Shown here: positions 5,510 to 63,224 of the stretch, one piece after another
How the letters are laid out: the number at the start of each line of letters is the position of its first letter
Position numbering within the stretch: the first letter of the stretch is position 1
From: Liolophura sinensis
Lineage: Eukaryota > Mollusca > Polyplacophora > Chitonida > Chitonidae
Direction of reading: 5' to 3'
Length of the DNA stretch: 64,000 nucleotides
NCBI RefSeq assembly: GCF_032854445.1
Contig: NC_088295.1
Location: 56,091,249-56,155,248 of the forward strand
Notes under the pieces: generated by a model
The model's input: the letters and a program-made list of their open reading frames with translations, nothing else
Databases searched by the model: none
What the model was told of the DNA's origin: nothing
Position numbers and translations under genes: made by a program

Positions 5510-5591
5510 ATGGAGTTCACGAGGTATACACAGGCCTGGCTTATTGTCGCCTTCATCGTTAGCACAGAGCTGACATACGCGCAAATTTCAG
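5510..5591 (+). CDS. gene 1 exon 1, signal peptide
   Basis: ATG at 5510 opens 27 codons with a hydrophobic core (AWLIVAFIVSTELTYA), followed by the donor G|GTAAAG in phase 1. Length and phase match the first exons of the other receptor genes. Confidence 0.7.
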
Positions 5592-8500: not shown

Positions 8501-11500
8501 ATACTTTCTGACTAAAGTAGAGGTGGATTTACTTGGCTGAACTTCAAAGCCGGACAGGTATTTTAACGGAGATGCCTTTTACTATATGGCCTGACAAACA
8601 CGCAGTGCTGCCGACATTTGCTCCATCGTTGTGATAAAGTGTGATGTTGAATCCCGTTGATAAACCCGCAACTTATATGTCAGAGCTTTGTCAAGAACCT
8701 GCGGAAAACGTAAAATCATAATCAGATAAATCAATCAATCAGTCAATCTTTATGTTTTGTATTCAGGTCTGGTAGGCCATTGTATCTCTGGTCGGAGGTG
8801 TCCTGGGAATGGCACAAGTATTGCATTGAGCCGGCCGGTTTCAAACCTTTGTGAAACGGACTTCACACGTATTCAAACATGGGCAACAGCAAAGCCGCGA
8901 TGACCTTGGTGACCTCCTATTCGGGTAGATGGCAAGTGGAGGTGTGGTCATGCTGACAGACCCAACTGATGCCCGTGTCGAGTTTTAAGACTCATACATG
9001 AGTGTAGAAAACGTTGGTACTAGTGCTTATAGACTTTCAACTATAAGTTTATGACGCCCTAGCAATAACTTGACGAAGCAGGCTATTATAAGGTGTGTGT
9101 TCCATACATAAATGAATAAAGGGAGATAATCACGAAGATGAGTTAGCTAAAGCCACGCGTGTGACAGGTTAATAAAAGTTTATAATTTTCAGAATAAGAT
9201 TAAATAAATAATACTGAAAAAAACAGTTAATGTGAAATTCCATACAACACCATACAAACATTATTTTCAAGTACCTTTTCTCTTTAAGCAAAATCGGAAA
9301 AAATATTGAAGACCGAATGTACGAATAACTTTTCGTACTCTTTCATCTGAACTTTATGACATTTTTATGTTTTCTCCACCTTTAAGCCATAAGCTTTCAT
9401 TCTGTGACTGATGAAAAAGAGTTGTCCATGAACCCCATTCCAGCAGTTCTGAACAAGCCATGGATTGCAATCTTAAAGCTAATGTTACATAACAATGTCA
9501 CTGTGTTTGAGGTCATCTGTTATTCTTCTCCCGCGGTACACAGGATCCGAGATAAGGGGGCTTTTAATGTGCGTTGCCGTTTGCTTGAGAGAGTGAACAT
9601 TTCATCCATGCTACACTCAGCTTTAGACATGCATATTTTATTTGATAGGGAAATGAGTAACGCAAACGGTATTCAAAAAACGGGGGTCAAAAACTAATAA
9701 GTGAGTTTTGAATTGGAACTCTTTTGTCGTCAAAGGTAAAGACTGTCGTACTCTGTCATCTGGCTGGTTCCCTCCGCCTGACGTTAGATGGTGTTAATCT
9801 CTTCAGCCGACGGGGTAGACACAGGATAAATTAACCTGATGTCACAATCAAGGTACGCAGAGCAAGTCAGGGAACCAAACTACTGTATCATGATGTGTGG
9901 AAAGTGTTGTTGACATTATTTACCAATACCCGGCCTCACCGTGTTCCAGAAGCATAAATGATACCTCTTCCTTTAGGGAACTTCTCAAGCTCAACAACTG
10001 TCAGGTTGTTGCAATATGCAGTACATACTTCTCCCGGTGGATGTGATTGCTCCAGTAACACTGATTTATCCGACACACATGCACCATTTAAATAATCGGT
10101 AGGCGCTGCTCTGTTTTATGTGCATTTCAGACTCATTGCCAACAATACCTCCGGCAACAACAACGGCAACATTACCAGTGAGGACGACCGAAGCAACAAC
10201 TGTGGAGACTGAAGATGTTACGGCACGATCTCGGAAAGGCAACACGACCGTCACTGATTCACAATCTGGGGAAGACTGCAGAGGTCAGTTTCGCAACACG
10301 AAATTTAATGGTAGCTTATAAGGGAAATATAGGTTTGACTTTTGCATTGTTCACTGTTGGGGGACGAGCCCTTGTCTTCAAACAGTGATTGCGCAAGTCG
10401 TTAATGAAAAATGAACGTATTTTGCTTTAGCAAGGTGCTAACTGTCCTACTGGAACCTTATCAATCTCTATATTTTCTACTGCCATTTGGAACTGAATGG
10501 ATATTTATTACCCTGTGATGCATACAATATAGTTTGAATTTATTTTAAATTATTTATAAATATAGGGTGATTTCCATAAAATGTTCTTTTTGTCTTTGTC
10601 ATCACGGATCAAACAATAAATTTTCGCTTTGCCCAATGCGTCTTTTTATATACACGAACCTAAACTTCTTTTACTGACAGTTGATCAAAAGGATTGGGTG
10701 CAAGTTCAACAACTTATAAATCTCTTTGTTGACGAAATACATATTTGTATTGTATTAATATAGCAGAAATAAATGAGGCGGGAAGAAGCCACTAGCAAAG
10801 TATAGACGGTTGGAAAAATAGCGGAACGAAAAGGTGACGTAGTTCAACTGGCTGCACTTATGTCTCAGCTTTGTATGGATAATGTTTGTTTTACTTGGAC
10901 CAGTCAAGAAGAACTTGTGTGGTTAAGTAATGGCGCTAGATCGTAATTTCATTTTGAAGTTATTTAGAGTTGGAGTATTTCCAATCTCTAGATCTAGATT
11001 GTTCGATCTAGATGATTTGCGCATGAAAAAATGAATTACGAGAGATATTTCGTCGAATTCGGAGAAACATGTAATTGTAATAATTTATGAGATTATAGTC
11101 TGAGAAATTACGGTGACAAGATCATTAATATGGAAGGAAGCCATACCCGTATGAATTTTATACATAGAAGTTAATTTAATATTTTCCCTTCTTTTAGCTA
11201 ATGATTCCCTCCCCTTACATGTGTAAAGTGCATCTCATAATACGTCAAGTGGGGGGGGGAGAGGGGGGAGGGGTACCAGTACTAATCCGTCTTGCAGCAA
11301 GCTGATTCATCATTGGTCCTCCATGCCATACTAGTGAGGGTATTTCATTAAAGGCCTGACAAATTAAACAGAGATTTGTCCCAAGCATTATCTACTTCTC
11401 TATCTGTTATCTATCTAATATACACATTGCATAATTCCAGTTCTTGTGGACACTGAATCTGCAATGTGTTCCATATGGGTTATCTTTTTACAATTCTTTT

Positions 11501-14282
11501 GGAAATATAATCCCAAATTTTTATGTTTATCGTAGGTCTCAGTCTTCTGTTTGAAATTAGTAGGAGTATAGTTTTTTTTTAGAGCGTTAAAGTTACAATG
11601 GCATTTATTCGACCAGCCAAAAGAGAATTCACATCATTATCCATGACTGCTTCAATAGTCAAAATGTTGTCCAGATATATAAGCTACAGATACACATCAT
11701 GGTGGTTGATAGGCTAGTAGTCTCAGGTGGGTAGATGGTATCTCTCTGTCTTGTGTTTATCAGGCTAAAGAATCAGTAGATGTGTCAGACTATGAAACAT
11801 GTATAAGGCACTCGCTTAGATAGCAAAATCGCTGGCTGGCTGTGAGTGTCTGGGGCTGGTTTCATGAAGTACACGTAGGATTAAGTAGCCCTTTGCTAAG
11901 TGGCGTTTATATCTCTACAACATGTAGTGTCATGGTAGTTAAAGGCTTACTGAGCTAACCGCATTTCACGAAACCGACCCCAGCCCCTTTATCGATGATA
12001 TCGTATGTTTGCTATCAGTCTTCGGCTGTGGTTTGTCTTTGGCGAAGGGTGACGGTTAACTTCCGGTACTCTGGTTCCCTTTATCTATGGATTCCCCTCT
12101 GATGGCCATGATGTAGACCTTAGTAGAAAATAAATAAGTAAATAAATAAAAATATATTATTTACTTAATTTAAAATTAATAAACGAATATGTATAATATA
12201 TTAAATGTTCCTCTCCGGCCGTACGTGGGAAGGTTTGTCAACAACATGCGGATGGTTATGGGTTTCCCCCGGGCTCTGCCCGGTTTCCTCCCACAATAAT
12301 GCTAGCCGCCTTCGTATAAGTGAAATATTCTTGAATACGGCGTAAAACACCAATCAAATAAATAAATCAAATAATATATTAAATGCATTTAATAAATAAA
12401 ATAGGTCGAGATTGAGTCTATCAGAACATGATATCATGAGGCTGATAAAGGTTTAGCACAAATCTGAGCTAATGGAGTTTCAGACGAGTTATGAAAAGAT
12501 CCTAAAGATTTATGCGATTTAGTTTAAATGGTTTAAGGAGTAAACCCTTCTTGTATATCATCTCTACGCAAAGGTCTGATGGCTTGTTAAGATAATTATC
12601 CACACAATTATGTACATTAACCTTTTATATGTTTGACTTTTATACGTTAATAAGACCGAACTTAACCTTTATCTCTTCTAAGGAGACTATACTCCCGCTG
12701 CTCCAGTGCACCAATTAAGGATTCAGTTAAACTCTTGTGAGCTACCGGTAATATTTAATGCTTTCATGTATTGTTCAGTAAAGTAATCATAGCAGTTGTT
12801 TGTAAATCTGGCCTGGCTCAAGTCAATTGGATGCTTTACAGGTGAATGGTAGTCAAGTAAAATTACACGTGGTGTATTTCTGATCTAGGGAATACTGTTA
12901 TCGTCGAAGTGGTGGTTGCAGGAGTTATCATTTGTGTTGCCATGGTGATCGGAGCGGTGTTGTACTATAAAAGAAGGTAATCATTCTTAATCATTCCGTT
13001 ACCATAATTCAGAAAGATAACCACACCACTGAGTATCCAGTTTTGGTCCTTGTACTTCTGTTTCTTTGTGAAAAACGTTGCAAACTTCCTCAGTCTCAGG
13101 CATTCAAGGGTAACTTTCAAAGCCGTGATAATCACTGTAATAATAACTTTCAATGTTGGGATATCCACGGGTGATTTTCAGTGGTGTGGTCTTTATGGGT
13201 GACTTTCAGTGGTGTGATATCCACGGATGACTTCCAATGTTTTTATACGCACGGGTGACTTTCAGTGCTATGATATCCACAGGTGATATATCGACGGGTG
13301 ACTTTCAATGCCACTAATGACTAACATTGTTGTGATATCAACGGGTGATTTTCAGTGCAGTGATGTCCAGTGCTGACGTTAAAGCTGTGATATTTATGAG
13401 TGACATTCAGTGCTGTGATATCGACGAATAACTTTCAAATGCTTTACCAGTATAAAATTAGTATGTAACTACCAAAATTGCCTATCTTTAGTGACACGTA
13501 ACTACACAAGCTTTACACAGCCATATGTTGGAAATCCATATTATTTTATAGAAAATGGTTTTTCTTTTCTTGGTTTCGACAACAAGAACTCATTGTAGCC
13601 AAACTTCTGGAGTTTTACATCATGATTTATTAATTTATTTATTTGATTGGTATTCTTATGCCGTACTCAAGAATATTTTGCAAATACTACGGCGGAATAT
13701 CATGAATTGGAAAAAGTTCGGAATGAATATTCCTTGCAACAATGTAGAAGTCAAACATAGCAAGATGAACATCTTGTGGACTTATGTGTCACATACAAAG
13801 TGAAATTTTGATAGTAAATACGACAGGCTTTACAGAAAGATGAATATTGGTGACAAAAGAAACACACTATAGATATTGACAACTTCACCTAGAGCCAACA
13901 ACCTAACAATTTTACCATTTAAATTCCACATTTTCTCTGCGCCCAAAAGGATAGTATATTCTCATCTAAGCTATATCTGCTGTTGTCTTTTATTTTTATT
14001 GTTCTCTTTTACTTTAGACCTACGCAAACATCAGGAGTAATTTTTGAAAATGACACGGAAATACCGTCAATCAGCTATTCCGATAAGACACAAACCACGA
14101 ATACGCCGCTGTACGCCAATGTTGACGTTCCGATTCCGCAAGGACAGCGCGTGGAAAAAGAGAGCAACCTGAGGGAAGAGGACGTTGATTACCTCACTCT
14201 TGGCTCATCACAGAGTCCTCATTACCAGGTTCCTCAGGCTCTCGAGCGCGGAGAACACAGCTACAGCAAACTACGTTACTGA
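5510..14282 (+). CDS. gene 1: putative type I membrane receptor with ITIM-like tail
   Basis: Multi-exon model: signal peptide 5510-5591; Cys-containing ectodomain exon from 8767 (end uncertain); possible 20-residue exon 9977-10036; Ser/Thr stalk 10131-10283; TM 12889-12976; tail 14018-14282. Junctions are phase 1 up to the TM exon and phase 2 after it, as in genes A, B and C. The tail has six tyrosines, including a textbook ITIM (VDYLTL) and TPLYANV, which fits a YxN SH2-binding site. It ends YSKLRY-stop, close to YSQMRY-stop in gene C, and both tails begin RPTQ, so the two are paralogues. The ectodomain is the problem: its frame meets TGA at 8901 unless an upstream splice site is used. The gene may therefore be a variant or partly decayed. 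An inhibitory role is inferred from the motif only. Confidence 0.65.
6030..6115 (+). mobile_element. SINE family 2, 3' fragment
   Basis: 'aactgaaaaattgtgaagcatgatgttgaaccccaatcattcattc' is the family 2 tail with a CATT tandem end. The 5' part is absent. Confidence 0.55.
6180..8217. repeat. AT-rich minisatellite, about 40 bp unit, about 50 copies
   Basis: Roughly 2 kb of units like 'gagtatggtgtttgactacc' + 'ctatagcagatattttatat', lying inside intron 1 of gene 1. Subtypes recur (a 'gactatggtgtt' form, an 'acgaataatgattgactac' form, a 'tagctgatatttt' form), and the same runs of subtypes appear around 6750-7000, 7150-7400 and 7430-7680. This suggests higher-order duplication. Reading frames in it are by-products. 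Confidence 0.9.
8231..8497 (-). mobile_element. SINE family 1, full-length copy with target-site duplication
   Basis: On the minus strand it starts with a tRNA-like head (GGGGCCTCTGTGGCTCAGTT, then GGTTAGCGCGCTAGCGCAGCG), has a B-box-like GAGTTCAAGTCC, and ends with ATTCTTGAATACGGCGTAAA and an AAATA tail. It is flanked by the 13-bp direct repeat TAAATACTTTCTG at 8218-8230 and 8498-8510. It inserted at the edge of the 40-bp minisatellite, in intron 1 of gene 1. Confidence 0.92.
8767..8900 (+). CDS. gene 1 ectodomain exon, possibly decayed
   Basis: After a good acceptor (tttgtattcag) the phase-1 frame reads LVGHCISGRRCPGNGTSIAL and continues through a third cysteine (SNLCETDF). The CPxGN core and the next cysteine 16 residues on match the gene C ectodomain exon (CPKGN, then 15 residues to Cys). 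The frame stops at TGA 8901-8903. Resemblance to gene C continues weakly in the other frames (AMTL against SMTL), which suggests a frameshift. A weak in-frame donor at 8869 (GTATTC) would keep the gene open with a shortened domain. Confidence 0.45.
9977..10036 (+). CDS. gene 1, possible 20-residue linker exon
   Basis: The acceptor cctttag is followed by 60 nt that stay open phase 1 to phase 1 (NFSSSTTVRLLQYAVHTSP), then a weak donor G|GTGGAT. It occupies the same place as the 13-residue exon of gene C. It has no homologue that I can see and may not be used. Confidence 0.3.
10131..10283 (+). CDS. gene 1 stalk exon, Thr-rich
   Basis: Acceptor gcatttcag, 153 nt, donor G|GTCAGT, phase 1 to 1. 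The peptide is dominated by Thr, Pro and Ser (PTIPPATTTATLPVRTTEAT) and ends in an acidic, Cys-containing segment. This is typical of an O-glycosylated membrane-proximal stalk. Confidence 0.7.
10284..12888. other. gene 1 intron between stalk and TM exons
   Basis: AT-rich, with a G-rich run at about 11250-11276 and a SINE family 1 fragment at 12205-12375. No further exon is recognised. Confidence 0.5.
12205..12375 (+). mobile_element. SINE family 1, 5'-truncated copy
   Basis: It begins at 'ctctccggccgtacgtggga', continues through 'gggctctgcccggtttcctc' and 'aagtgaaatattcttgaata', and ends 'cggcgtaaaacaccaatcaa' plus an ATAAATAAAT tail. The tRNA-like head is missing. Confidence 0.85.
12889..12976 (+). 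CDS. gene 1 transmembrane exon
   Basis: Acceptor gatctag, 88 nt, donor AG|GTAATC, phase 1 to 2. It codes a single hydrophobic helix (VVVAGVIICVAMVIGAVLYY) followed by the stop-transfer KRR. Length and phases equal those of the TM exons of genes B and C. Confidence 0.8.
13140..13440. repeat. degenerate minisatellite, about 28 bp unit
   Basis: Units like 'gtgatatccacgggtgactt' + 'tcagtgct' are repeated about ten times, with drift and indels, in the last intron of gene 1. Confidence 0.6.
13624..13692 (-). mobile_element. SINE family 1, 3' fragment
   Basis: 'ttatttatttgattggtatt' followed by 'gccgtactcaagaatatttt' is the tail of family 1 in reverse orientation. Confidence 0.6.
14018..14282 (+). 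CDS. gene 1 cytoplasmic tail exon with ITIM
   Basis: Acceptor tttactttag, phase 2, 88 codons to TGA 14280-14282. Tyrosine sites in order: SISYSD, TPLYANV, VDYLTL (14184-14201, matches I/V/L/S-x-Y-x-x-L/V/I), PHYQVP and HSYSKL, with a C-terminal tyrosine. The remainder is hydrophilic and probably unstructured. ITIMs usually recruit SH2 phosphatases such as SHP-type enzymes; that this one does so is inference. Confidence 0.8.
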
Positions 14283-15448: not shown

Positions 15449-15516
<68 letters not shown>

Positions 15517-16665: not shown

Positions 16666-16734
16666 ACAACGCTCTGTTTTTTTCTACCAACCTCCATCTT
16701 GTCAGTGGCACATGCACGTTCATCACGTTTAAAG

Positions 16735-17066: not shown

Positions 17067-17333
17067 TCAGGACAATGTCGTACAGCTGGATTCTTGGCTG
17101 TTGTCTGAGAAGGCCAGTCTATTCTAGGGGGTTTTAAACACCTCAGTGTAGGTGTGGTCTTTTTGGGTTATTCAGTACAGGGGCAATAGTAATATGAGCA
17201 CCGACGTTATCCAGGTTTGGGGCAGTAGTCATTGGAACGTCGTTGTTATCCAAGTTTGGGGTCGTAGACATAAGAACACCACTGTTAAAAATGTTCTGAG
17301 CCACCGGATCATCAGCAGCTCCTCTCATGTTTC
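17067..17333 (-). pseudogene. decayed copy of the gene A last tail exon
   Basis: On the minus strand, after a preserved acceptor (ctctacag), it is clearly homologous to 23662-23935: NMRGAADDP aligns with NTRGGAEN, the TPNLDN repeats align, and it ends near the same stop (TTGTCCTGA). A frameshift lies before the DHTYTEVF block. The first ITAM tyrosine codon is TAG (17124-17126) where gene A has TAC, and the second is TGT (Cys, 17082-17084) where A has TAT. Both tyrosines of the motif are therefore lost. Confidence 0.85.
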
Positions 17334-17855
17334 TGTAGAGCGAACACTACACTTATCACCACTAGATTTTTCTAGGGGGCCATCTTCATGGTTCATGCGA
17401 TGGAGCAAACGAGTCTCAGTTGGTTTATGTCAGTACACGTGCCACATTTTTAGCGCCATATGTTGACTTTTATACATAAAACACATAAGACGACATGAAT
17501 CAATGCGTCGAAAGAATCATTCGTATACCAGCCGTCAAAGGAGATGAACTTTCTGGGTTAGTAATCGCACGGCCATCTCCCAAAACGAACATTCTACGAT
17601 GAATTATTGCACATTTTTGCCTCACATAACTATCTTGGGGCAAAGAAATATGGAACACTAAGCTGTGGTTATATACTCTCAAGCAAATAAAAAAAAGACC
17701 CTTCTGAAGAATATGCAGTTCTATTACCGCCCTTACCTCTAGAAGATCAGGAAGGTTTAAACGCCCATGTGATCGGAACGGTGAATTGAGAGAAATTAAG
17801 ACTCGTATAAACAAGTTGTGCGAGTACTAGAGCACAAACTGACGAAATAACTTAC

Positions 17856-18351: not shown

Positions 18352-18359
18352 CTAAGTTG

Positions 18360-23661: not shown

Positions 23662-23935
23662 TCAGGACAATGACGTATAGTTGGATTCCTGACCGTTATC
23701 TGTATAGGTCAGCTTATTGTAGGGGTTTTCAAAAACCTCAATGTATTCGTGGTCTTCTTCAGGTGCCGTGTTGTAATATGTAGGCGAGAGCGTCTCGTCC
23801 TTCACATTATTATAGTCCGGGGTATCCAGGTTTGGGGATGTAGCGATAGGAATACCGGGGTTATCGAGGTTTGGGGGCACATTGTTGTGAAAACCGCGGT
23901 TTGCCACCGTATTTTCAGCACCTCCTCTTGTATTT
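23662..23935 (-). CDS. gene A tail exon 2, ITAM-like
   Basis: Acceptor acgtttaccag, phase 2, 91 codons to TGA 23662-23664. Two PPNLDN/SPNLDT repeats precede sites DYNNV, TYYNT, HEYIEV, NPYNKL, LTYTDN and NYTSL. YNKL to YTSL spans 23668-23721. The spacing of ten residues is wider than the classical 6-8 of ITAMs. Confidence 0.88.
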
Positions 23936-46300: not shown

Positions 46301-49300
46301 TGAGTACATAAAATTACATGAGATGCCTGTAAACCGACTCAAAATGGATACCTTATGGCAGATGTGAGGTGATGCTGTGAATCGTAGCAGGCTATAACTT
46401 GTATGTAATACTGAAATATTTCAGCCTCACAATTTGAGTATAGTGGTTGATTAAACTTATATTTAACTTATATGTCACACTATATGAATTCCCGTCAACA
46501 AATATTTAACATCATGTTTGTTAGACTGTCGGATATTTTTTGTCGGTAAATGAAGACAACGGGGCTTTTGTCCGCCGGGGATTTTGTCCCGGATTCATGA
46601 CGGAACTGTTTCCTGGATTTATGTTTAGGTTTACGACAGCGATCAGGTTTGTTCTTGTGTCAGTGTCAGTTTTTTGTCTGTGCACTGTCAGGTTTGTGCA
46701 AGTATCAATGCCAGGTTTCTGCCTGTGTCAATGCCAGGTTTGTGTCTGTGCCAATGCCAGTTTTGTGCCGGTGCCAATGCCAGGTTTGTTCGTGTGTCAA
46801 TGCCAGGTTTGTGTCTGTATCAGTGTCAGGTTTTTGTCTGTATCAGTGTCAGGTTTGTGTTTGTGTCAATGCCAGGTTTGTGCCTGTGTTTGTGCCAGTT
46901 TTTTGCCTCTGTCAATGTCAGGTTTGTGCCTGTGTTAATGTCAGGTTTGTGCCTGTGTTAATGTCAGGTTTGTTCCTGTGCAAATATCTGGTTTGTGCCA
47001 GAGTCAATGTCAGTTTTGTGCCAGTGTCAATGTCAGGTTTTTACCTGTGTCAATGTCAGGTTTGTGCCTATGTCAATGCATGGTTTGTGCCTGTTTTAAT
47101 GTCAGGTTTGTTCCTGTGCAAATATCTGGTTTGTGCCAGTGTCAATGCCAGTTTTGTGCCAGTGTCAATGTCAGGTTTGTGCCTGTGTCAATGCCAGGTT
47201 TGTGCCTGTGTCAATGCTAGGTTTCTTCCTGTGTCAATGTCAGGCTTGTGCCTGTGTAAATGCTAGGTTTGTGCCTGTGTCACTGTCAGGTTTGTGCCAG
47301 TGTCAATGCCAGGTTTGTGTCTATGTCAATTCCAGTTTTGTGACTGTGTCAATGCGAGGTTTGTGTCTGTGTCAATGCCAGTTCTGTGACTGTGTCAATG
47401 TCAGGCTTGTGTCTGTGTCAGTGTCAGGCTTGCGACTGTGTCAATGTAAGGTTTCTGGCAGGTTTGTGACTGTGTCAATGCCAGGTTTGTGTCTGTGTTA
47501 TTCACTCGTCTGTGTCTATGTCAATGTTAGGTTTGCTCCTGTATTAACATCAGATTTGTGCCTGTATTAATGTCAGGTTTGTGCCTGTGTCAATGCCAGT
47601 TTTTTGCCCGTGCGAATGTCAGGTTTGTGTCTGTGTCAGTGTCAGGTTTGTGCCTTTGTGAATGTCAGGTTTGTGCCTGCATCACAGTCAGGTTTATGGG
47701 AGAAAGTTTGCAGTCTGACAAACGGGAACCCAGTTGGGCAGGTGGCCTTAGTCATTACAGCCGACTTTTTATAGAACTCATTTGACGAGTAGCTTACATC
47801 CGTCACACTGGGGACAGGAAATGCTATTGATTACGACGTAAAGTACCAAATAAATACACATATAAATGAATGATGGAATTAACTAAGTAATAGTTCAAAC
47901 TTGGTAAAAGAACAATTATGTGGTGTCTGTTTTTGTTGCAGTAAACTGTTCCTCTCATACGGCGCATGGACAGAAACCAGGTAAACTTCTTTCATATGTA
48001 GCTACCTCAGAGAGTGAATATTCTATGCAGTCTTTATTCTATACGTGGATTTCCCATGGACGTTGCCTGCCTCCCTTCCACCATGATGCTGACCGGCGCC
48101 ATATAAGTGAAACTTTCTTGAATACGGCGTAATACTTCTATCAAATGATTGAATAAAATTAATAACCCTAATTACCACTATATCGACCTGTAAATGCCTA
48201 CCTCTTGCACCCCTTGGCCTTCCACTGTTAACGGTGAACATGAATCTTGACCAACATTGGAGTAAAGTGTAAGTAAAATTTCTGATCTTTCTAAGTGCTA
48301 TCAAAACAAAACTGGGTAAATTTAATCATTTTTTTAGATGAAAAAGCGACGGCAAGAACATCTGTGATAGAGTTTCAAATGAGAACTAAAACGGCAACAC
48401 TTCCGGTGTTACCGGAAGTTACATCATCTTCCACGCTCACACTGACTCAGTCCTCAGGTGTAAGCACCACACTAATTTCTGCATCTTGTGAGAAAAGTAC
48501 AGGTAAGTTCTGTTTTACTAAGTCTTAAAGCTAATGTGGTCATCAGTATTTAGAAATCTAGCCGTGAGTTTTATTTATTTATTTGATTAAGTTTTAACGT
48601 AATACTCAAGCGTTTCCCCGTTCCTCGAGACAAGTTAGTTTTAGTGTAGGAGGAAAGCATGTAGCCATGCATACAGTAAACCACCTGCTAGTGACAAAAG
48701 TCACGTGATGTCTCGTTTACTTTATATAAGAACAATTAAGCGATCTGTGAACGCACGCGGCCGCTTATTGTTACCAATAAGGGTTCTCTCTTTGAAATTT
48801 GAAACCATATACATGTGGAATACTGTATATGTATAAAGAACAACAAGGTGGGAGTATTCTGGATGGCCTTCGCTCCTTCAGACTTCAAACAAAATAAAGC
48901 AGTTTCTATAATACATTCAGTCGTGGGATTACCTGTAATCGTCTACACAAGCATTAGCCGGCACATTCTTAGTTCCTCGTTGCATAACACAGACATTTCC
49001 TAAAACCATCTTTCCTCTGTATGCGAAGCTAGTTGTTGTAACATCAATTTTCCATGTGCCACTTGCGGGTAGACAGAGGAAAGGTAATTCTGTAAAATTT
49101 CAGTCTTACCTGAGGAAGAGCTGATAAAATTTTGACTACAAAATACACCATATGATAAACTGACTGACTGTTTTAATAATGTATATGCTTGGAGATGAAT
49201 ACAAGAATAGATTATTTCAGCTCTAAAAAGAAATGCCGTTCTTTATTCCTGCACATCATTCTAAATCGTCTGGGGGAGGGAGGTACTCTTTGGCCGAGTT

Positions 49301-52300
49301 GTTAGCGTGCTAGCGCAGCAGAATACCCAGGAGACTTTTAACAATACGATTGCAGTGAGTTCAAATCCTGCCAGAAGCTGGCCTCTTCTCCTGTTGTGGG
49401 TTTTCCTCAGGCTCTGCCCAGTTTTCCTCCCACCACAACGCTGAGTACCGCATAAAACTCCAACCAGAAAAAATAAATGAACAAAGAGTTAATAGATGGG
49501 ATTTAATTAACACATTGTGTGTTATGAAAAGTTAACCTCAAACAACAAACGCCCACCTCAGCTCTTCCCCTCATAGTTGTTTCACGGTATTCACAATGTA
49601 CATCACTGACCAACAGGATGATTTTTAACAAATTCTGATTTAGATGTGGCTGTAACAGTAATTACAGCGGGTGTGGTCACTTGTGTTGCCTTGGTTACTT
49701 GCCTTGTGTCGGTGTATATATGGAAGAGAAGGTAAGCAAACGTATTTTGTAAACCTTTTATCGCCCTTTTTCCTTAATCCGCTATCGGAATTTTGTGAAA
49801 AGAATGTGGTACAATGGATTTGAACCCTAATACGGAGACACTATGATGGCATTAATACAAATTCATTTTCCTTTGCGTATGGGATGACTTACAGGATTCC
49901 GCCATGCACGTATTTACAGCACTGGAAATTATTAAAGAAACCAGAAAAAATAGTTAATTTCTACAAAAATAGTGTAGTTAAATTGCTGTGATATTTCTGA
50001 AAGTTGACATACCTAGAATTTGCATATCCCAGAATAAATGAAAAAGTTATCATTGAGTTTGAGCTATGAATATATTCTGGGCCCGAGTACTGTCTGTTTT
50101 TTTTTTTTGGACAGAAGTGTATCAAGCCTTAGTCTCAAGTGAGTATCAACACTGATGTCAACGTCAATTCTGCACATATAACAGAAACGTTTTTTTTTTT
50201 AACTTATTCGGCTCTGTAAGAGAAATGTACAATTTAGAGTATTTTATTGTGTTATTTTCATATATGTGTGAAACTCTGACTGAAATATACATGCTATTTT
50301 CATTTCACTGACTCCATATATACCCCCTTGATTTCAATAATCCGGACATAAAGAAAGCACTTTAACAACTATTAGCACGCATTAACAAAACATGGAATAA
50401 ATTCAAGAAACACGTTAATTTGAATTGAATGGATGAATTATGGCCACATGTTTATTACTGAAAATTACATCAAACGACTGACGAGACCCTCACAAGGACG
50501 CTGAACATCAGCCTTACCATCACAGGATGAATCAGCCTCTATTTCATACAGCTTATTTAGTTCACCCCACGCAAAAACAAAGCGGGGATGTCAAATGCTC
50601 GCTCCTTGAGACATTCAAAGGTAGCCCATATCTCTTGCCAAATACACAGACGATACACCAAATGTCCGCTCCTTGATAAATTTGAAGGTAGACATGTCTC
50701 TGGTGAAATACATAGATGATACGTCAAACACGCGTTCCTTGAGAAATTCAATGGGTAGTCCATATCTCTAGAGAAATACATAGATGATACGCAATAAAGT
50801 CTCACTTGCACCTCCACGGCCTTGCCGCACTGTGACTGCATGTATTAAACACAGCTCGCGGGCAAGAACCACGCTACTCCTCAGAGACTGTGACGAGTGC
50901 CAGCTAAGTTGATATATGAAACAAATATTCACACAGCAACAGTACTTTGCTAAGAAAGAATTCAAAATACAAAGCATATGCGGCAATTTACTTCCCAAGG
51001 TCACCAATATGATGAAAGTACCAATAAAACTGTGGCAAATTTGTGCCCGAGAAGAAGTGTAGACAATCTAAAATCCGCTTAACGCTAGTAACGGACCAAA
51101 GCTATACAGGAATGCTTTCCCTGATAATTTACTTATATATGTTATAAATACAATGACAATAAATATAAGATAAACGGAACAATAATAACCTTAGTGCCCG
51201 CTTTATCACTGGGTGTGATGGAAGGGAGTTAAAATCAGAACGTTGATTAATGAACTAGCTCTTTACATCGGCCAGACTGTGAAAGGAAAGACCTCACGGC
51301 AGGGAGAGACAGCTGGACCAAGGGGGATAACTCTAACTACCCGTTTCACAATCACCACAGAGCTGGATACATCACCCAAGCCGATACACCACTAAAAATT
51401 CCTCCTATGTAATAATACTGTTTACCCTGTATAAATGATCAACAAGTTGAATAACATGGTCGCTGTGTGTTTATTGCAAATGTTGCATATAGACAAACAT
51501 GAGGGAGAAATGTTATTTGGTAGCTCTTTCAGACTAACCGTGCAAGATACAGTGGTGCATCCTGTGTCAGACTTGGCAAAAGTCCTCTGCGTTTATTCTT
51601 GTGGGCGTGGCTAACTATCCCATGAGCGAGTTTATGTCTCCCCTGTCGATCGGTTATTTTGTCTGAAACATCGTTTCAGTCCTTTTGCATTATTATAGCT
51701 GTAAGGCTCAGTTTATAGACACAAATAGAAAGGTATGGAAATTTCATTAGGTGTTGAAGTACCTTATTTAAGTTGAATAACTTATTTAATTAAACAATAG
51801 AGAAAAATATGTTTATATCTTATCAACTTAAACAGATGAAAGTAACAATATATATGCTACATTTTAAAAATTCATCGCCTTTTGGAGAGCTGTACAACTC
51901 AGTCATTGTTTTATTTGCTCTCTTTTAAACTTAGCAGACCAACACAAATGTCACGACGAAGTTTTCGGAAAGACGCCCCTAGCGTTTTGCCAAATAGCAA
52001 TTCTGGCCTGACGAATCCACCATTCCACGTTGATCTCCAGACTCGACAAGATCAGCCCGAGGGCCTGGAAGACAGAACGGAAATGTTGACTTATGATACT
52101 GCGGGTAGTTATCTGACGCCGATTTTCAGGCCGACTCGTCAGCCAGATTCTCAGTTTACAGGAATGGATCACGGGGCCGAACTCAGGTCTTTTAACACTG
52201 GTGAAGAGGATGATGGGTATTGTACGCCACTCTCCGACCAGAATCCGCTGTACGAGGTTCTCGGGGAACGAGAGACCGTGGCAGATGAACACCCCTACAG

Positions 52301-52316
52301 CCAAATGCGTTACTGA
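43291..52316 (+). CDS. gene C: Cys-rich type I receptor with Tyr-motif tail
   Basis: Six exons give an open frame of 328 residues: 43291-43363, 45471-45710, 47942-47980, 48338-48502, 49644-49731 and 51935-52316. Order: signal peptide (1-24), nine-cysteine domain (about 25-104) with a tenth cysteine in a 13-residue exon, Ser/Thr stalk (118-172), TM (173-201), and a tail of about 127 residues with six tyrosines. Ectodomain junctions are all phase 1; the TM exon runs phase 1 to 2. I do not recognise the Cys-rich fold. The tail start (RPTQ) and the C terminus (YSQMRY-stop) mark it as a paralogue of gene 1. NPLYEVL (NPxY) and YSQM (the YxxM class that binds PI3-kinase p85) suggest endocytic or activating signalling; this is inference. 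Confidence 0.82.
44410..44640. repeat. 48 bp tandem repeat, about 4.8 copies
   Basis: Near-perfect 48-bp units ('atagacatttgtataccatc' + 'cgtcaatcatttgcacatgc' + 'gtcaaaat') in intron 1 of gene C. Because 48 is divisible by 3, both strands stay open across the array. I do not take this as coding. Confidence 0.9.
45471..45710 (+). CDS. gene C Cys-rich ectodomain exon
   Basis: Acceptor tctgttcacag, 240 nt, donor G|GTATGT, phase 1 to 1. Nine cysteines, with CPKGN near the start and a CCLIC cluster. The spacing of the first cysteines resembles gene 1 (8767 onwards). No family is recognised. Confidence 0.8.
46640..47700. repeat. 24 bp minisatellite, more than 40 copies
   Basis: Units such as 'gtgtcaatgccaggtttgtg' + 'cctg', in an intron of gene C. 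The unit is a multiple of 3 without stops, so all three plus-strand frames stay open over long stretches and yield Cys/Val/Gln-rich pseudo-proteins of up to 205 codons. Confidence 0.92.
47942..47980 (+). CDS. gene C 13-residue exon
   Basis: Acceptor tttttgttgcag, 39 nt, donor G|GTAAAC, phase 1 to 1. It adds VNCSSHTAHGQKP, with the tenth ectodomain cysteine and an NCS sequon. Being small and symmetric, it could be skipped without a frame change. Confidence 0.6.
48045..48160 (+). mobile_element. SINE family 1, 3' fragment
   Basis: 'ccaccatgatgctgaccggc' + 'gccatataagtgaaactttc' + 'ttgaatacggcgtaatactt' mark a 5'-truncated family 1 copy in a gene C intron. Confidence 0.75.
48338..48502 (+). CDS. 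gene C stalk exon, Ser/Thr-rich
   Basis: Acceptor ttttttag, 165 nt, donor G|GTAAGT, phase 1 to 1. The peptide is rich in Thr and Ser (TATLPVLPEVTSSSTLTLTQ) with one cysteine near its end, comparable to gene 1 (TATLPV is shared). Confidence 0.75.
49275..49475 (+). mobile_element. SINE family 1, internally shortened copy
   Basis: Head 'tttggccgagttgttagcgt' + 'gctagcgcagcagaa', B-box-like 'gagttcaaatcctgcc', then 'ggctctgcccagttttcctc' and a 'cgcataaaactccaaccag' tail. Confidence 0.75.
49644..49731 (+). CDS. gene C transmembrane exon
   Basis: Acceptor ctgatttag, 88 nt, donor AG|GTAAGC, phase 1 to 2. Single helix (VITAGVVTCVALVTCLVSVY) followed by WKR. Confidence 0.8.
51935..52316 (+). CDS. 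gene C cytoplasmic tail exon
   Basis: Acceptor taaacttag, phase 2, 127 codons to TGA. It starts RPTQMSRRSFRK (basic) and holds LTYDTA, GSYLTPI, GYCTPL, NPLYEVL and HPYSQMRY-stop. A 117-codon minus-strand frame overlapping it is a shadow. Confidence 0.85.
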
Positions 52317-55629: not shown

Positions 55630-55892
55630 AGTATATTTATTTATTTATTTGATTGGTGATTTTCCCCTTTCTAAAAAGTGTAGCTGTTGCCAGCATCAAG
55701 GTGGGGGAAATGAAAACCCGGCACTGCCAGGGGGAAACCGATGGCTATCTACAGGTTGCCGGTGGACCTTTCCACATACGACCGGAGAGGAAGCATGAGC
55801 TGGACATAATCTCACAGCGACCACTGGTTAGAAGCTACCGGGTAATTATGTTGCACCAACACGCTAATCACTAGGCCACGGAGACTCCTAAA
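55630..55892 (-). mobile_element. SINE family 1, near full-length copy
   Basis: The plus strand shows 'ttatttatttatttgattgg' at the left and 'ctaggccacggagactcc' (reverse of the tRNA-like head) at the right. It stands about where a gene A-type TM exon would be expected in the gene B copy. Confidence 0.85.
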
Positions 55893-56544: not shown

Positions 56545-56550
56545 TTTATT
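56545..56550 (-). terminator. candidate polyadenylation signal of gene B
   Basis: AATAAA on the minus strand, 431 nt downstream of the gene B stop. Other A-rich variants lie nearby. Confidence 0.3.
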
Positions 56551-56980
56551 TATGAGCTTTGTAGACGTATAAAAATTATTTAAAAGCAGTGAAATAATGT
56601 AGTATACACAAAGGACAAAACATTTTCCAAGAAATTAAAAGGATGGAGACTTGGTTTCTAAAAGTCTTAACTTCCAATCATCGAATTTGAGTTGGACTCT
56701 TTGGAAAATCTTCTTGATTAATAAACCACTTAATTGCAGGCCGGCTAATGTGTATAGGGCGAGCCCTCAAAAGCAAACGTGATAGGACAGAACGAATTGA
56801 ATAGGTAATATTCCAAAAGCCAATTGAATGCAGTAAGGAAAGTGTTTTCAGTCCTTGATGTACGTGGTCCAACTACAAACGTCAAACAGCCACTTTTCCT
56901 TTCATGGAACAGCTTTTGAACTACTTATACTGCCACTGTCGCAATCCCTTACGTTCACAAGTCACCACCTTGGCAGTTAG

Positions 56981-57515
56981 TCAAGCGTCCAGATCTTGTT
57001 TTGCCCGTGTGTTAGCCCTGTTCAGAACATCATAAGGATTAGCCTCGGTCTCAGTCCTGGCTGGAACTGCCCTGCCTCGATGCAACTGATTATACGTCAT
57101 GTCGACGTCAGCATTTCCCGTGACACCGCCAATAACGTCATTAGAACTGCTCTCACCGTAAGAATGTCTGACCACGTGATCGTAATCTCCATGCACTTTA
57201 AAATGTGCAGCTTCCCCTTGTACTCGGTCGTAGTCGCCATGGTGATTTGTTCTTGCGGCGGATCCAACCGAGAATGCAGCGTCTCCTGAAGTGTTGGCCG
57301 CTCTTCCGGTTTTGTTGACCTTGGAGTACAAGTCGCTGACATTCGTCTCTGCAGCACGATTCCAGGGTGTGCCATTGTCGTCTCTCTCAAGCTGGTACAG
57401 CGAGTATCGGGAGTTAATGTTGTCGTAACCAGCGTTGGGTCGGCTGACGATCTGTGCCTCCGTGACGTCATCATCACGGTTGTGTGTTTGAGGAATAGGG
57501 GGCTTCTGTGCGGAC
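56981..57515 (-). CDS. gene B cytoplasmic tail exon
   Basis: Acceptor tgttttggtcag, phase 2, 178 codons to TGA 56981-56983. Hydrophilic, with PxxP-like KPPIPQ near the start. The two near-repeats HGDYDRV and HGDYDHV are separated by 13 residues and look like an internal duplication. Confidence 0.85.
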
Positions 57516-60500
57516 CTGACCAAAACAAACAAACGAAATCCATGGGTGACTTTGGCATTTAAAAGTTTACAAACACTTATGTGCTGAGTTTTTCAGTGGC
57601 AAGGTGATATTGTCCAATGCAGACGATTCCGACCTTGAACAGAGACGGTAAATTCTTCCGCTGCTATTTCTCTCGAGGCATTGGTGACAACAAGTGGTCG
57701 AGGTTGCTCGTGTCAATGTCTTAGTCCGTGGAACACAGCTTGTCTTCATCCAATATAACCAAATTTCTACGTCACGGATGGGAAAGTTCGTCAGTAACTT
57801 GCCTAAGGTCGATGGGGAAAAATGGCATTATAATTATGACGAATTCATGTGTTAGGCCGCAAATTTTACTTTCCACTATAGTCCTTCAGACACCACAAAA
57901 AAGTTTTCAGCACAGAGGAATATAGGAGAAATTCACCAAGTGTTATAACTAGAATGTTTTGACCTGGATCAAAAATTGATCAAAAATTGATTAACGTTCC
58001 AATTTTGATGTTACCAAAATCTGGACGAATAATGGAATTACCGTCTTTTCCAGAGGAACACGAGTAGAACCCCGATCACAACACACACCACCAGTCCTCC
58101 GATAACCCCGCCCACAATAGCACCGGTATCTGGGGAGAAAGAGAAACTTGTAGGACAAACTTCTGAAAATCACTTCTACAGTCTTTGGGTAATATACGAG
58201 TCTTTACAACCGTACCTGTGAAGAAATCTGGTCAAGATAACGAGAATTCTACCATGGATAATACCAAGATTGGTAAACATTTCCACATTTGTACATGTTC
58301 TCGCTCTCACTGCTTATGGTGCCTTAGTGACAATAGGTCGTCGCCGAAGCTCGTGTGGTCGTATATGCAGTCTAACATTCGTTGAAGATCACTTGTCTTC
58401 CATCAACGTATGGCGTTCATCCTATTGAGACAAGTTTGTTTGCAACTCGCCAAATGTTAGTGGTTTATGCGGGGCTCTACGGTTTCCTCCACCCACAAAA
58501 CTGACTTAAAAGAATCGTAATATTCAAAAAGTCTTGAGTATTACGTTAGTCAAAAATGAAATAATGAAATAAATAAATACATAGGTCTGGGTTTATTCCT
58601 TTGATTACTGTTAAATGTCATACTCAAAAATGTTTTGTTTGAGAATGTATGTCAGTTTTATTGGTGGAAGATTCCAGAGGGCCCGGGATAAACCACCAAC
58701 CTTTGGCTAGGTACTAACAAACTATTCATCATGTGACCTATACAGACAGGCATATTGCATACCATAGTGATAGGAAACAAGTGGTCCTCAACAAGTCCTT
58801 GTCATCAAAACCCAACGATTCCTGATAGCGGGTGAATCGGCAAATTCCATGTCCAAGAATGAGCCTTGCTTTAGTGGCTGTTGGTAACTGTTTTATTACC
58901 AACAAGATGATCTATCATTAAACATTTTGCAATCTGCATGGTACGACTACACTGCTCCTATTTTATTTTGTCTTATTAGCGTACCATTTAGTTCCTCTTT
59001 TAAATTATAGATATCTCGAGTTGTACTTTCCAAAGAGAGGCCGTTATTTGGCAACGTGGTCTCGTATGACGTCATAGTGGGTTGGTATGTCGTTGCTGAA
59101 AAACAAAAGAAAGTTGTCACTGTACCTAAACGGGGCCTTTGGTGTCAAACTAACTTAAAAGTTATGAAAAATACTGCTTACTTAACCCTGAAAATTATAC
59201 GTTTTATTGACGAATTTTGCGTTGTCTTTGAGTAATACAAGGGTGATCTAGGAGTAAATTCGCACTGGTTGACTGACATAGCTGAGTATAAATTATTAGA
59301 AACAGACATCGTTGAAAGCAGATCTGGCATCCACTCGGATGGCATTGATGTTGTTTTCATCACATTTATTTATTTATTCGACCGTAATACTCAAGAGGTC
59401 AGTTTCATGGGTGGGGGAAGCAGGAGTGGCTGTGCAAAACCACCCACCCTGGTCATTTGACTGATTAACACTCCTAAATGTTACCTAGAGATATGTACAT
59501 CACATTGGATGGAAAACAAGTGGTCTTCAACCAACGTTAGGTTGTAGAAACGAGTGTCTTATTGTCACCAATCTCCCATGAACATTGAAAGCAGTGGAAT
59601 CTACAAATTCCCTGTTCAAGGCTAGATTTGAACACACAGTTGACAAGAGTGAAAAGCATGCTCCTTAATTAACCACTCGGCCAAAGAATGTTTCCCTTTG
59701 ACGCTACATGCAAGACGCTGGTTGGAGCGATTCAAATCGTTCTTACCAGCCTTGAGTGATTGCTGTCACGGATAGAATAATTTGGTTAAATTTGTCTCAA
59801 AAACTTAAGGTAAAAGGACGGTAACACAAAACATTCTATACCAAACTGCTGTGCACATGATATTTTAATAGGGAACTTAATTAATTTGGGTTCACGTTGT
59901 GCATGCAGTCTGTGGGCAAGACATTGACATCGTATACTGAGTACAAGAAACAATGGTCGATGGATTTTGTACTTTGATATTTATACCCTATTTATCATAG
60001 TATTTTGTGTTGGTCTTACAGAGCCCTGTAGGTGCAGCTGAGCAGTATGCAGGTATGCAGGAATTATTGCATAATTGCATTTTATCGTCTACCAATGCTA
60101 CAGGAAACTCAAGAATTTTAAGAATGTTCATTGTTTCGTTTTTATTCAGCTATAAAAAAAGCTATACAATATGCTTGCCCCAAATAAACCAAATAAGTTG
60201 TAGTTGTCCAAACAACAGAAAAAGTCTAAATTTCGATACCAGAAGCGGAAATCTAACTTACCGTTTGCCTTTGTTGAAGACGATTCTTCTGATCCTCCTG
60301 TCAAACCTACTGAGACTGTTGTTGTTGCAAGAGGAGGGCAAGTCCCTGACAACAATAACAGTCAATAATTTATACATAAAGGAAATTAAATCCGCACGGA
60401 AGTTTACTAGGTTATGAGAAAAAATTAATAGTTCAAAAATATGAAATTCTCACTGGAAACAACTGGAAAGAAGCTAAACGAAGAATGCAACAATTGTACC

Positions 60501-63224
60501 GAATCTCAGTAGCACAAAGTATTTGTTTACGACCAACGTGATATATCTTAATCCAATAGTTTTATAACGTTAAAAGTATATCACTTCCAACAATAAAAGT
60601 GAACAAGCGATACAACTTCCTGGCAACAATAACAATCAACAACTGACACGAAAAGGAAATTAAATATAGACGGAAGTTTACTAGGTTATGAGAAAAAGGA
60701 AAAAAACAAACATCTTAAATTCTCAATATAAATAAGCTAAATGACGATTCCCACGAAGGTCACAGTCACAATTTGTTGACTTCAGTCGCCCGAAGTACTT
60801 TATGTTACGCCCAACGTGATATTTCATAATCCAACCATGGCGAGATTCAATGCTTTTAAAACGTTGAAATACACATCCAGATCATTCTGCTGATGTCAAA
60901 AGTTTTGAGCACCTAAGTACCACTCGCCATTAATATGGACCTTTGTCGATGACACAAATCTTACAATGCTACCAGTAATAGAGAAGCAGCCGTTTCCTTC
61001 AAACGACGGCGGAAAGCAATGGTTTATTTTGGGGTATGTTGTTTTCGTGATATTTGGTCATTAATGCGTGTAATTAACTTGTTATGTGGTATACAAATGC
61101 AATCAACACCCTGGCACTGTTATACCTAATTCTGCTTTGGTGCCTTAGGAGTTCTCCAAATGTGCTACTTTTTAAGCACTTCCATGAACTGTTACAATAA
61201 TGTCCTGTTAGAGATAAGTTGAGTTTCACTGGTCATATGTGATGATTTGTCATCTATTACGATGTCGTTGTTGCTCCAGTTTTATTCCGCATTCTGAGCT
61301 GTTTGTAATGCAGCTTGTATGCATTGTATGATAATAACACAAGGGAAGCGACAAATTTTTTTTATCAACATAATTCATAGGCTTGCTGATTACACGTACC
61401 AGAAGAAGTGCACGTATACGTGATGGATCGCACGCTGCTCTGGGTAGACCCGGGCTGGGTGAGAATACATGGATACCCTATGAATTTCCAAACAGCAGAA
61501 TGAAGATCACACTTGCTTTGATCAGTGCAGTTTGTCTGTAACTCCTGACGGTCATCGTTTACATCTCTTACCCAGCTACATCGACTTGTGTTGCGCTGAC
61601 AACATCGGTCAGGCACATCCCTGGATATAAGATACGAACAAACTTGGTCGCTTGGATCATACTGGTAGTACCTGACCTCTGTTATACAGATCTCTTGCAA
61701 CTCGTCACACTCTAACATGTTGTGTGTCTGAGTAAATGTTGATGGTCCGTGACATGCGTCCGAGGTTTTCACTGAAAAAGATATAAACATAGGGTAAATC
61801 TAGGTATGATTCTATGCCAAAGAAAAACATATACGAACAAATCATGCAAGAATAGTGTGTATAGCCTGCATGAGGTGGCATCACCTTAACCTATATCTAA
61901 ATAGTCCAACAGGCATGGTCCTATAATATATGAGTGAAATATTTTTGATTACGGCATAAAACACCAGTCAAAAAATAAATTCCATAGCACATACATTGGT
62001 ATTATTACATCACACGACAATTTTTTTTAGGTTACGCAGGGATATTACATAACACGGCAATTTGTACTACATTAAATGGTGGGTGTTACATAACACGGCA
62101 ATTTGTACTACATTAAATAGTGGATGTTACATTGATGGTGTATTATTACATACCCTCACCATATAACGCCGGCAGCCGTCGTTTAAGGAAATATTCTTGA
62201 GTACCGCGGAAAACACCCATAAATACATATTAAAACACAGCGTGGTGTAACAGGTTCGTCACGCGCACAGATGAAGGGCGGTGTTTATCTCTCAGCCTTG
62301 TCCCATACTCGTTTTGGTCATCAATGGAATTTTCTTCAGAACCATTTAACTATTTAACAAAGTTAAACTCTCTGTTTTTTTTTTCTTTTTTGACTCTTCA
62401 GTCGCGTAAGCTTGTATTTCATTTCCTTTGACTATTTACAAAGTGTTTTATAACTTTTGTCACTGGTCATAGCCTTAGGACGGAACAGGGTGGACATGCC
62501 TAGGTGAATACATACATGTATAATATTGCTACATTTAGTATACTTCTTCAGAACTCGCTTCATGTTAGCGTTCTGTGTGTAGTGTTGTACGGCATATATA
62601 CGTTTGTAAAGAGTGCCCTACTTAAATTCTAAAACAATGTACCTGTATGCACACGGACTGGGTTTGGTAACGCCTACACAGTATAGTTACACTTACCTAC
62701 GACTTGGCCGATCCATTTATGATCAGCGTGAGATCGTGTACATATTTATCACCATTCAGAGAAAATTCTATTGATGTGATTTGTTAAAATGCCAAACAGA
62801 CAAAACCGAATATGAGTGGGTACATCGGTTTCATATACTCCCGCAATCAAGGCCTAAGGCGTGGATATATCCGCAGGGTCAAGGCAAAACGAGCAGATGC
62901 AAAATGCAAACAAAAAGGGAGACAACTTTGCACAAAATTCGTCCGTTAATTTTTTTATTCGCTTCGCCTCGGAAAAAATATTATCGACCTCAGCCAAATA
63001 TTTACCCGTGTACCCCCCCCACCCCTCCCCCCCAAAAGGCCGTCATATAACAAATAATATATACACATGTATGCATATTGTGTCACGCACCTTGTAAAAC
63101 ACTTACCTTCAACATCTACAGAACATACTTGCAGTCCAGCTGTCAGAATCGTCAGGAAGATTGGCATATACATGGACGGTTGCCCTCTAATACGACACAT
63201 TTTGAAGTTTTCACATCTGTTCAC
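56981..63224 (-). CDS. gene B: lectin-like receptor with multi-tyrosine tail
   Basis: Five exons give an open frame of 398 residues: 63107-63224, 61400-61771, 60262-60345, 58042-58129 and 56981-57515. Order: signal peptide (1-39), SUEL-like lectin domain (about 44-163), one stalk module (164-191), TM (about 195-217), WKRR, and a 178-residue tail with nine tyrosines. Exons 1-3 have the same lengths and phases as in gene A (118, 372, 84 nt) and close sequence, but the tail is unrelated to that of A. Most tyrosines sit in YxxV/L/I (YDNI, YSKV, YDRV, YDHV, YNQL, YDVL); YDNI also fits a YxN site. No strict ITIM or ITAM is present. The likely role is a surface lectin that recruits SH2 adaptors; ligand unknown. 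Confidence 0.85.
58042..58129 (-). CDS. gene B transmembrane exon
   Basis: Acceptor tttctccccag, 88 nt, donor CG|GTAATT, phase 1 to 2. Gly-rich helix (IVGGVIGGLVVCVVIGVLLV) then FLWKRR. The GGxxGG spacing could favour helix packing, as in dimerising receptors. Confidence 0.85.
58570..58890 (-). mobile_element. SINE family 3, partial copy
   Basis: 'aaaccaccaacctttggcta' and 'aaacaagtggtcctcaacaa' are the family 3 body. A shorter version is in gene A at 27890-28060, so this insertion predates the A/B duplication. Confidence 0.6.
59365..59690 (-). mobile_element. SINE family 3, near full-length copy
   Basis: The plus strand shows the tail 'tttatttatttattcgaccg' + 'taatactcaagaggtcagtt' and ends in 'aaccactcggccaaaga', the reverse of a tRNA-like A-box. 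Shortened copies are at 26245-26340 and 28560-28740 in gene A. Confidence 0.8.
60262..60345 (-). CDS. gene B stalk exon
   Basis: 84 nt, phase 1 to 1, acceptor ttattgttgtcag, donor CG|GTAAGT at the same place as in the two gene A units. Peptide TCPPLATTTVSVGLTGGSEE then SSSTKAN. Confidence 0.8.
61400..61771 (-). CDS. gene B lectin-like ectodomain exon
   Basis: 372 nt, phase 1 to 1, acceptor atatctttttcag, donor G|GTACGT. Same cysteine pattern as gene A: DACHG, MLECDELQEICITEV, DRCCQRNTSRCSWVRD, NCTDQSKCDL, GYPC and SVRSITYTC. The DPC triplet of the family is YPC here. Confidence 0.82.
61920..62230 (+). mobile_element. two short SINE family 1 tail fragments
   Basis: They lie at 61920-61985 and 62160-62230 in intron 1 of gene B, orthologous to those at 32450-32665. 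Between them is a short local duplication of 'cacggcaatttgtactacat'. Confidence 0.6.
63107..63224 (-). CDS. gene B signal-peptide exon
   Basis: 118 nt with a phase-1 donor G|GTAAGTGTT. The core MYMPIFLTILTAGLQVCS is nearly identical to gene A. Confidence 0.82.

Follow-up and report, generated by a model that had tools for sequence, protein, structure and literature searches.

A 64-kb stretch of the genome of the chiton Liolophura (C1:56,091,249-56,155,248; the whole of this stretch is referred to below as the window) raises the question of what kind of receptor family it encodes, how far that family extends and what its members might recognise. The original prediction, made from the window alone, had described at least four genes (here A to D) sharing a signal peptide, a Cys-rich lectin-like module, a Ser/Thr stalk, a transmembrane (TM) helix and a tyrosine-rich tail, and had proposed an expanded immune or allorecognition family. 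Our analysis of the window and of the genome (632 contigs, with C1 itself comprising 96,433,062 bases, and with eight haemocyanin beta-sandwich matches on C8, as suits a mollusc) revealed that genes B and D belong to a family of receptors with an ectodomain related to the SUEL/rhamnose-binding lectin (RBL) domain, that the family is real and larger than first described, and that it is arranged and evolving like the tyrosine-tailed recognition arrays of other animals. We consider it probable that these genes form a diversifying family of surface-recognition receptors that signals; a specifically immune role appears somewhat less secure.

Gene structure and genomic array

Genes B and D each consist of four exons on the minus strand. 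In gene B, a signal peptide (MCLIRGQPTMYMPVFLMILTAGLQVCSGDGE; 33591..33684, phase out 1), for which homologous DNA occurs at 16 places in the array, is followed by a SUEL/RBL-like module with 11 cysteines (31836..32207, phase 1-1, lectin group I), a short Ser/Thr stretch with a TM helix (25132..25228, phase 1-2) and a terminal exon encoding tail type B and the stop codon (23662..23935), in which the motifs YNNV, YIEV, YNKL and YTSL are found, the last two forming a pair with the spacing of an immunoreceptor tyrosine-based activation motif (ITAM), YNKL-x10-YTSL. Gene D is built in the same way, from a signal peptide (63107..63200, phase out 1), a SUEL/RBL-like module with 11 cysteines (61400..61771, phase 1-1, lectin group II), a TM helix with a KRR stop-transfer sequence (58042..58129, phase 1-2) and tail type D, with nine tyrosines, six YxxPhi motifs and a stop (56981..57515). 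The joined frames are open (278 amino acids in B and 362 in D), the phases run 0-1 / 1-1 / 1-2 / 2-stop in both, and AG/GT dinucleotides flank all internal boundaries; the predicted phase pattern, with phase-1 ectodomain junctions and a phase 1-2 TM exon, was thus borne out, and the four TM exons and four tyrosine-bearing terminal exons of the window lie where they had been expected. The layout and phases are common to all four genes, while the Cys-rich module is shared by B and D only, that of C being unrelated and none having been found in A. The joined exons of D lack the predicted Ser/Thr stalk, which amounts to about 10 residues in B and is represented in A and C by candidate exons only. 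Stalk exons between the lectin and TM exons of B and D were considered and omitted from the models; the candidates differ between the two genes. When the two loci are compared (window 31.7-34.3 and 61.2-64.0 kb), the upstream DNA is 80-90% identical and the lectin exon region just 68%.

With the B lectin exon as query, 26 matches were found in the genome (this and the other counts for large families are lower bounds, to be read as at least), none of which contained a stop; the proposed expansion of the family is supported. Seventeen of the matches lie on the minus strand at C1:56.12-56.51 Mb; a further five are located at 56.88-56.90 Mb, and the remaining four are found at other places on C1 and on C10. 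The array of 17 spans approximately 395 kb, the window being its edge, and 16 of its lectin exons are paired with a signal exon some 0.5-3 kb upstream. Tail D was recovered in 14 long copies and tail B in three, one of them split across two frames, together with decayed matches; a tail-B relic of this kind lies in the window on the minus strand (17070..17346), as two weak matches, one with in-frame stops. Projection from the window models showed intact splice sites and frames in all 16 lectin exons tested; L017, an array lectin at 44% identity, was not projectable and was excluded from the selection and nonsense counts. Signal exons were intact at 12 of 16 places (the other four being outside or cut off by the loci examined), TM exons at 12 of 14 (L060 and L067 failed), and 12 of 14 tails were in frame without a stop, including one with an in-frame deletion; of the remaining two, L061 ran to the edge of the DNA examined and L060, an orphan D-type tail without a TM exon that is still included in the tail counts, was frame-shifted.

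Of the members beyond the array, that on C10 combines a lectin exon with a TM frame rich in Ser/Thr and with a short segment that is 39% identical to tail B and is interrupted by a stop; at C1:48.3 Mb, a TM-like frame lies downstream of the lectin exon. The five lectin exons at C1:56,880,705-56,903,939 (L018-L022) occur on both strands and are 42-44% identical to that of B; no convincing TM exon was found in the stretches examined around 56.88-56.90 Mb, and these five are possibly secreted relatives.

When each lectin exon was paired with the next tail downstream on the same strand, and lectins were grouped by identity and flanks, tail D was found behind ten group-I and three group-II lectins, and tail B behind two of group III and one of group I, the last being gene B itself. 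The same lectin types are therefore backed by at least two kinds of tail. In L013 and L014, a group-I-like upstream region (84-89%) is joined to a group-II lectin; these junctions and the mixed combinations fit recombination within phase-1 introns.

Relation of the ectodomain to RBL-type lectins

Sequence comparison points to an ectodomain that is a divergent SUEL/RBL lectin, derived from the RBL fold. Alignment with hhalign of a 25-member family profile (L026, the weakest lectin match, was excluded from the lectin alignment) against six SUEL domains (five segments taken from four PDB chains, and one from this genome) gave P 2.9e-5 and a probability of 73.7% over 70 columns. The original prediction had proposed a search with the Pfam family PF02140 as a check, and the relation emerged from it in part: 14 of the 25 lectin exons match SUEL_Lectin at E up to 10 (best E 5e-4), matches too weak to count as above the curated cut-off for PF02140 membership, and the window's own two exons, B and D, gave no PF02140 match at E up to 10. 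A search of the genome with PF02140 listed five SUEL matches, none of them in the array, and hmmsearch of the PDB sequences with the family profile returned no matches. The RBL domain is characterised by eight cysteines in four disulphides (PMC2430599), and counterparts of all eight (C3, C18, C41, C53 [or C54/C61], C78, C84, C98 and C117), assigned by alignment only and with their pairing predicted, occur in 23-25 of the 25 exons, which possess three further cysteines beyond these.

In the RBL domain of Lat-1, the glutamate following the first cysteine is required for sugar binding, and E42D or K120R already cuts or abolishes it (PMC2430599). None of the 25 chiton exons has glutamate at this position (His in 22; Cys, Tyr and Phe in one each). 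For Lys120, which lies in loop2 of Lat-1, the 17 array members have no lysine in the interval from C98 to C117, and an arginine lies nearby in all 25, the alignment here being uncertain. Because the sugar-contact glutamate is absent, binding of rhamnose or galactose, the ligands that the original prediction associated with SUEL-type lectins, is not predicted for this family. Receptor RBL domains often lack the sugar-contact residues, and it has been argued that they recognise non-carbohydrate ligands (PMC2430599).

Tyrosine motifs in the tails

Comparison with shuffled sequences showed an excess of YxxPhi motifs in tail D (6 versus 1.26, P 0.0004) and tail B (4 versus 0.90, P 0.005), with an unclear excess in A (3 versus 1.08, P 0.07) and C (2 versus 0.91, P 0.22). 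All eight aligned tyrosines of tail D are retained in 14 of 14 copies, including those of YSLY and YGES, which are not YxxPhi motifs, and 111 of 143 columns are invariant (pN/pS 0.42; M0 omega 0.67; M2a not significant, 2dlnL 5.2). The ITAM-spaced pair of tail B is present in all three copies and is reached by 2% of tail-B shuffles; the looser YDRV-x12-YDHV of tail D is reached by 5%. One motif resembling the immunoreceptor tyrosine-based inhibition motif (ITIM; [S/I/V/L]xYxx[L/I/V]) occurs in tail A (VDYLTL) and one in tail B (SNYTSL). The description of the tails as immunoreceptor-type is supported in part only: B has the ITAM-spaced pair and a single ITIM-like motif, A has one ITIM-like motif, and C and D have neither. 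Homology between tails B and D was considered and rejected, BLASTP giving no alignment.

Positive selection on the lectin exon

Codon models applied to the 11 group-I lectin exons gave an M0 omega of 1.24 and favoured M2a over M1a (2dlnL 25.2), M2a placing 26.5% of the sites in a class with omega 3.5, and in 25 data sets simulated under M1a the statistic reached at most 10.3. With all 16 array lectin exons 2dlnL was 32.5, and on a star tree 40.1, although the star tree is a coarse control and may push the statistic up by itself. The site posteriors are naive empirical Bayes values from our own implementation, with alignment columns converted by hand to L001 numbering. Fifteen sites had a posterior above 0.8, and eight of these fall in loop2, which makes up 20 of the 120 positions (Fisher P 0.0005, with loop limits that were set by alignment to Lat-1 once the selected sites were already known). 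By these codon models the group-I lectins show positive selection that is concentrated in loop2, and the rapid evolution of the ectodomain, together with tyrosine tails that are kept across copies, agrees with what had been expected of a recognition receptor.

Divergence of the exon was also compared with that of the 3' flank in 12 chosen pairs. The exon was the more divergent at P <0.01 in two of these, L012/L013 (7 of 360 versus 0 of 801) and L004/L006, and the less divergent in L006/L009, whose flank aligns poorly; the other nine pairs were not significant at 0.05, and among them L002/L005 leans towards a less divergent exon.

Neighbouring genes and repeats

Genes A and C lie on the plus strand, and their exons also join in frame, with the signal exon of C and both stalk exons being best candidates only. 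Gene C comprises a candidate first exon with a weak signal peptide (41616..41676; identical in the single array copy compared), a nine-cysteine module that is not SUEL-like (45471..45710, phase 1-1; four genome matches), a candidate Ser/Thr-rich stalk exon (48338..48502, phase 1-1), a TM exon (49644..49731, phase 1-2) and tail type C, with the C-terminus HPYSQMRY (51938..52316). The AlphaFold model of the C module, made from one sequence, was poor (pLDDT 38). Gene A comprises a signal peptide (5510..5591, phase out 1), a candidate Ser/Thr-rich exon (10131..10283, phase 1-1), a TM exon (12889..12976, phase 1-2) and tail type A, with the C-terminus HSYSKLRY (14018..14282), which matched only itself in the genome search. 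The A and C tails appear to be related (E 4e-6 in a single comparison). Tail C was found at 14 places, on the strand opposite to the lectin genes, several of them with stops or fragmented, and one unit (L069) lacks the greater part of the C gene body. The array is therefore composed of D/B-type genes on the minus strand facing C-type genes on the plus strand, the latter partly decaying.

Two minisatellites lie inside introns of the plus-strand models, one at 6182-8150 (48 copies of a 42-base unit) and one at 46643-47695 (45 copies of a 23-base unit). A short dispersed repeat at 8190-8420 recurs on both strands at least near 0.65, 12.3, 16.8, 28.6, 32.5, 37.9, 40.6, 48.1 and 53.1 kb of the window, and a first look gave 5,207 candidates genome-wide, 40 of which were scored. 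A second dispersed repeat occurs at 18.0-18.35, 36.7-37.1 and 54.2-54.6 kb, with translated pieces 72-94% alike. Scans of the 64-kb window for tRNAs and Rfam families gave no matches.

Alternative explanations

Several results weigh against the reading of the B/D family as diversifying receptors that signal, among them the order in which the loop limits were set, noted above, and the result for loop1, which was not enriched in selected sites (3 sites in 22 positions, P 0.55; 2 of 11 in a narrower loop1, P 0.41). The evidence is the sequence of one assembly. Of the 16 genes, two seem to be incomplete: near the tail paired with L003 no match to a TM exon was found, and the tail paired with L015 contains a frame break. 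The AlphaFold lectin models, made from two window sequences, were poor (pLDDT 47.2), and a Foldseek search of PDB folds with such a model gave no match at E <= 0.001. Neither plus-strand gene extends the lectin family: the module of C was rejected as a SUEL domain (hhalign probability 0.7% and 0.8% against the two lectin profiles), and a search of gene A at relaxed splice scores brought up no exon of phase 1-1 with at least three cysteines. Pairwise counts put lectin pN/pS around 1 and not clearly above it (0.91 among the ten group-I genes that carry tail D, with dN>dS in 16 of 45 pairs; 1.33 in seven sister pairs, P 0.21). The codon test is based on a single tree, and its result can be inflated by gene conversion, for which the mosaic flanks in the array speak. 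In the same genes dS of the tail (0.047) is a third of that of the lectin (0.146), and part of the sameness of the tails is therefore homogenisation, not constraint. The motif content of tail D belongs to the same side of the balance and is taken up in the next paragraph.

The first of these is that the proteins are scavenger or endocytic receptors, in which the YxxPhi motifs act as AP-2 sorting signals and the ligand is cleared rather than signalled through SH2 proteins. A YxxPhi motif that has V, I or L at +3 can serve just as well as a clathrin-adaptor signal, and tail D, the commonest tail, combines six YxxPhi motifs with no match to the ITIM pattern and none to the strict ITAM pattern (YxxL/I-x6-12-YxxL/I); pattern searches likewise found no ITIM in tail C and no strict ITAM in tails A and C. 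However, nine tyrosines in a D tail of 177 residues exceed what internalisation is generally held to need, and tyrosines outside YxxPhi motifs are as invariant as those within them. We regard an endocytic function in place of signalling as unlikely, although a real contender; either SH2 signalling or clathrin sorting may apply, above all for D.

Positive selection and tandem arrays also fit reproductive proteins, and sea-urchin eggs were the original source of SUEL lectins (PMC2430599), so that the lectins might instead be gamete-recognition receptors whose fast evolution reflects sperm-egg coevolution in a broadcast spawner and not pathogens. The long multi-tyrosine tails kept across copies and the ITAM-spaced pair of tail B point rather to a signalling cell, and we judge a gamete role to be distinctly improbable.

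A further explanation is neutral: a minor RBL receptor gene would have multiplied in tandem through unequal crossing over, under relaxed ectodomain constraint and without its copies diversifying adaptively. Over 45 pairs, pN (0.096), pS (0.128) and intron divergence (0.104) are close overall. The decay of the C-type neighbours, with stops, fragments and one copy without its gene body, also suits neutral turnover. Against it, about 17 nonsense changes would be expected in the 16 lectin exons if they were neutral and none is seen, the cysteines are conserved, and the preference for M2a over M1a exceeds that of the null simulations; we doubt strongly that neutrality accounts for the family.

That some of the array is an artefact of assembly, the near-identical units L012/L013/L014 being unmerged haplotypes, receives some encouragement from their introns (99-100% alike over about 0.8-2 kb) and from the 14x HiFi coverage and 1.24% heterozygosity of the published Liolophura japonica assembly (PMC11068029), but is very unlikely given that group-I units differ by approximately 9-13% at the median, are ordered on one 96-Mb scaffold and leave at least a dozen distinct lectin sequences.

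Proposed function

As diversifying signalling receptors, the B/D proteins would be tandemly expanded small type-I receptors with a signal peptide, one RBL-derived disulphide-rich domain, one TM helix and a long multi-YxxPhi tail. Loop2 of the RBL-like domain would form the variable recognition surface for a fast-changing ligand, which may more likely be a protein or a complex glycan than rhamnose or galactose. Binding of ligand would cluster the receptors, Src-type kinases would phosphorylate the conserved tail tyrosines, and SH2 proteins would relay the signal inside haemocytes or other surveillance cells. An activating branch would be in keeping with the ITAM-spaced pair of tail B, and a different branch with tail D. 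New specificities would come about as units duplicate in tandem, as lectin exons change under positive selection and as lectins and tails are recombined through phase-1 introns. In this scheme we infer surface expression, phosphorylation, the ligand, the cell type, the division of labour between tails and the immune role. More tentatively, and with considerable doubt, the array might be a counterpart of natural killer-type clusters that grew within the molluscs, with a hypervariable loop2 on an RBL domain, swappable phase-1 exons, at least two signalling tails and a haplotype-variable content, discriminating self or pathogen by integrating different signals.

Relation to known receptor systems

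SUEL/RBL-type ectodomains on membrane proteins are known from latrophilin (ADGRL), a G protein-coupled receptor, and from EVA-1/C21orf63, a single-pass protein with two RBL domains that is a Slit co-receptor in C. elegans (PMC2430599). The chiton family differs from both in its one divergent domain, extra cysteines, long multi-tyrosine tail and positively selected tandem array. In organisation it resembles fester/FcoR of Botryllus and Alr of Hydractinia, which are likewise multigene families at the cell surface, with genes in neighbouring pairs and with tails that bear YxxI/L/V, hemITAM or ITIM motifs; the ectodomains of fester/FcoR are Ig and Sushi domains (PMC12065747), whereas those of the chiton family are RBL-derived and known from one assembly. 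Among molluscan recognition proteins, the oyster CgSiglec-1 is described as a homologue of the Siglecs, themselves described as ITIM-bearing, but has two Ig domains, and the part of its description consulted mentions no RBL domain or array (PMC5877582). A limited search of the open PMC literature, judged by titles and the beginnings of abstracts, found no SUEL/RBL receptor array and no tyrosine-tailed RBL receptor in a mollusc, and the terms 'lectin' and 'immun' do not occur in the main text of the genome paper (PMC11068029).

Chitons are solitary animals. The vertebrate KIR and Ly49 clusters resemble the chiton family in their tandem arrays, fast-evolving ectodomains and exon reassortment, and in the tyrosine-based signalling that is proposed for it; their ectodomains are unrelated to the chiton's, and canonical ITIM or DAP12-coupled signalling is theirs.

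A fast outer domain coupled to a nearly constant tyrosine tail is the look that receptors in conflict with pathogens or with other individuals tend to have. Tyrosine-tailed recognition families with other ectodomains have been described for chordates and cnidarians (PMC12065747), and an RBL-based family in a mollusc would, if the reading is true, add another fold to those taken up into the tyrosine-tailed design. It would also lend itself well to study, since its variable surface (loop2), its constant tail and its unit of shuffling (the phase-1 exons) can all be seen in the sequence.

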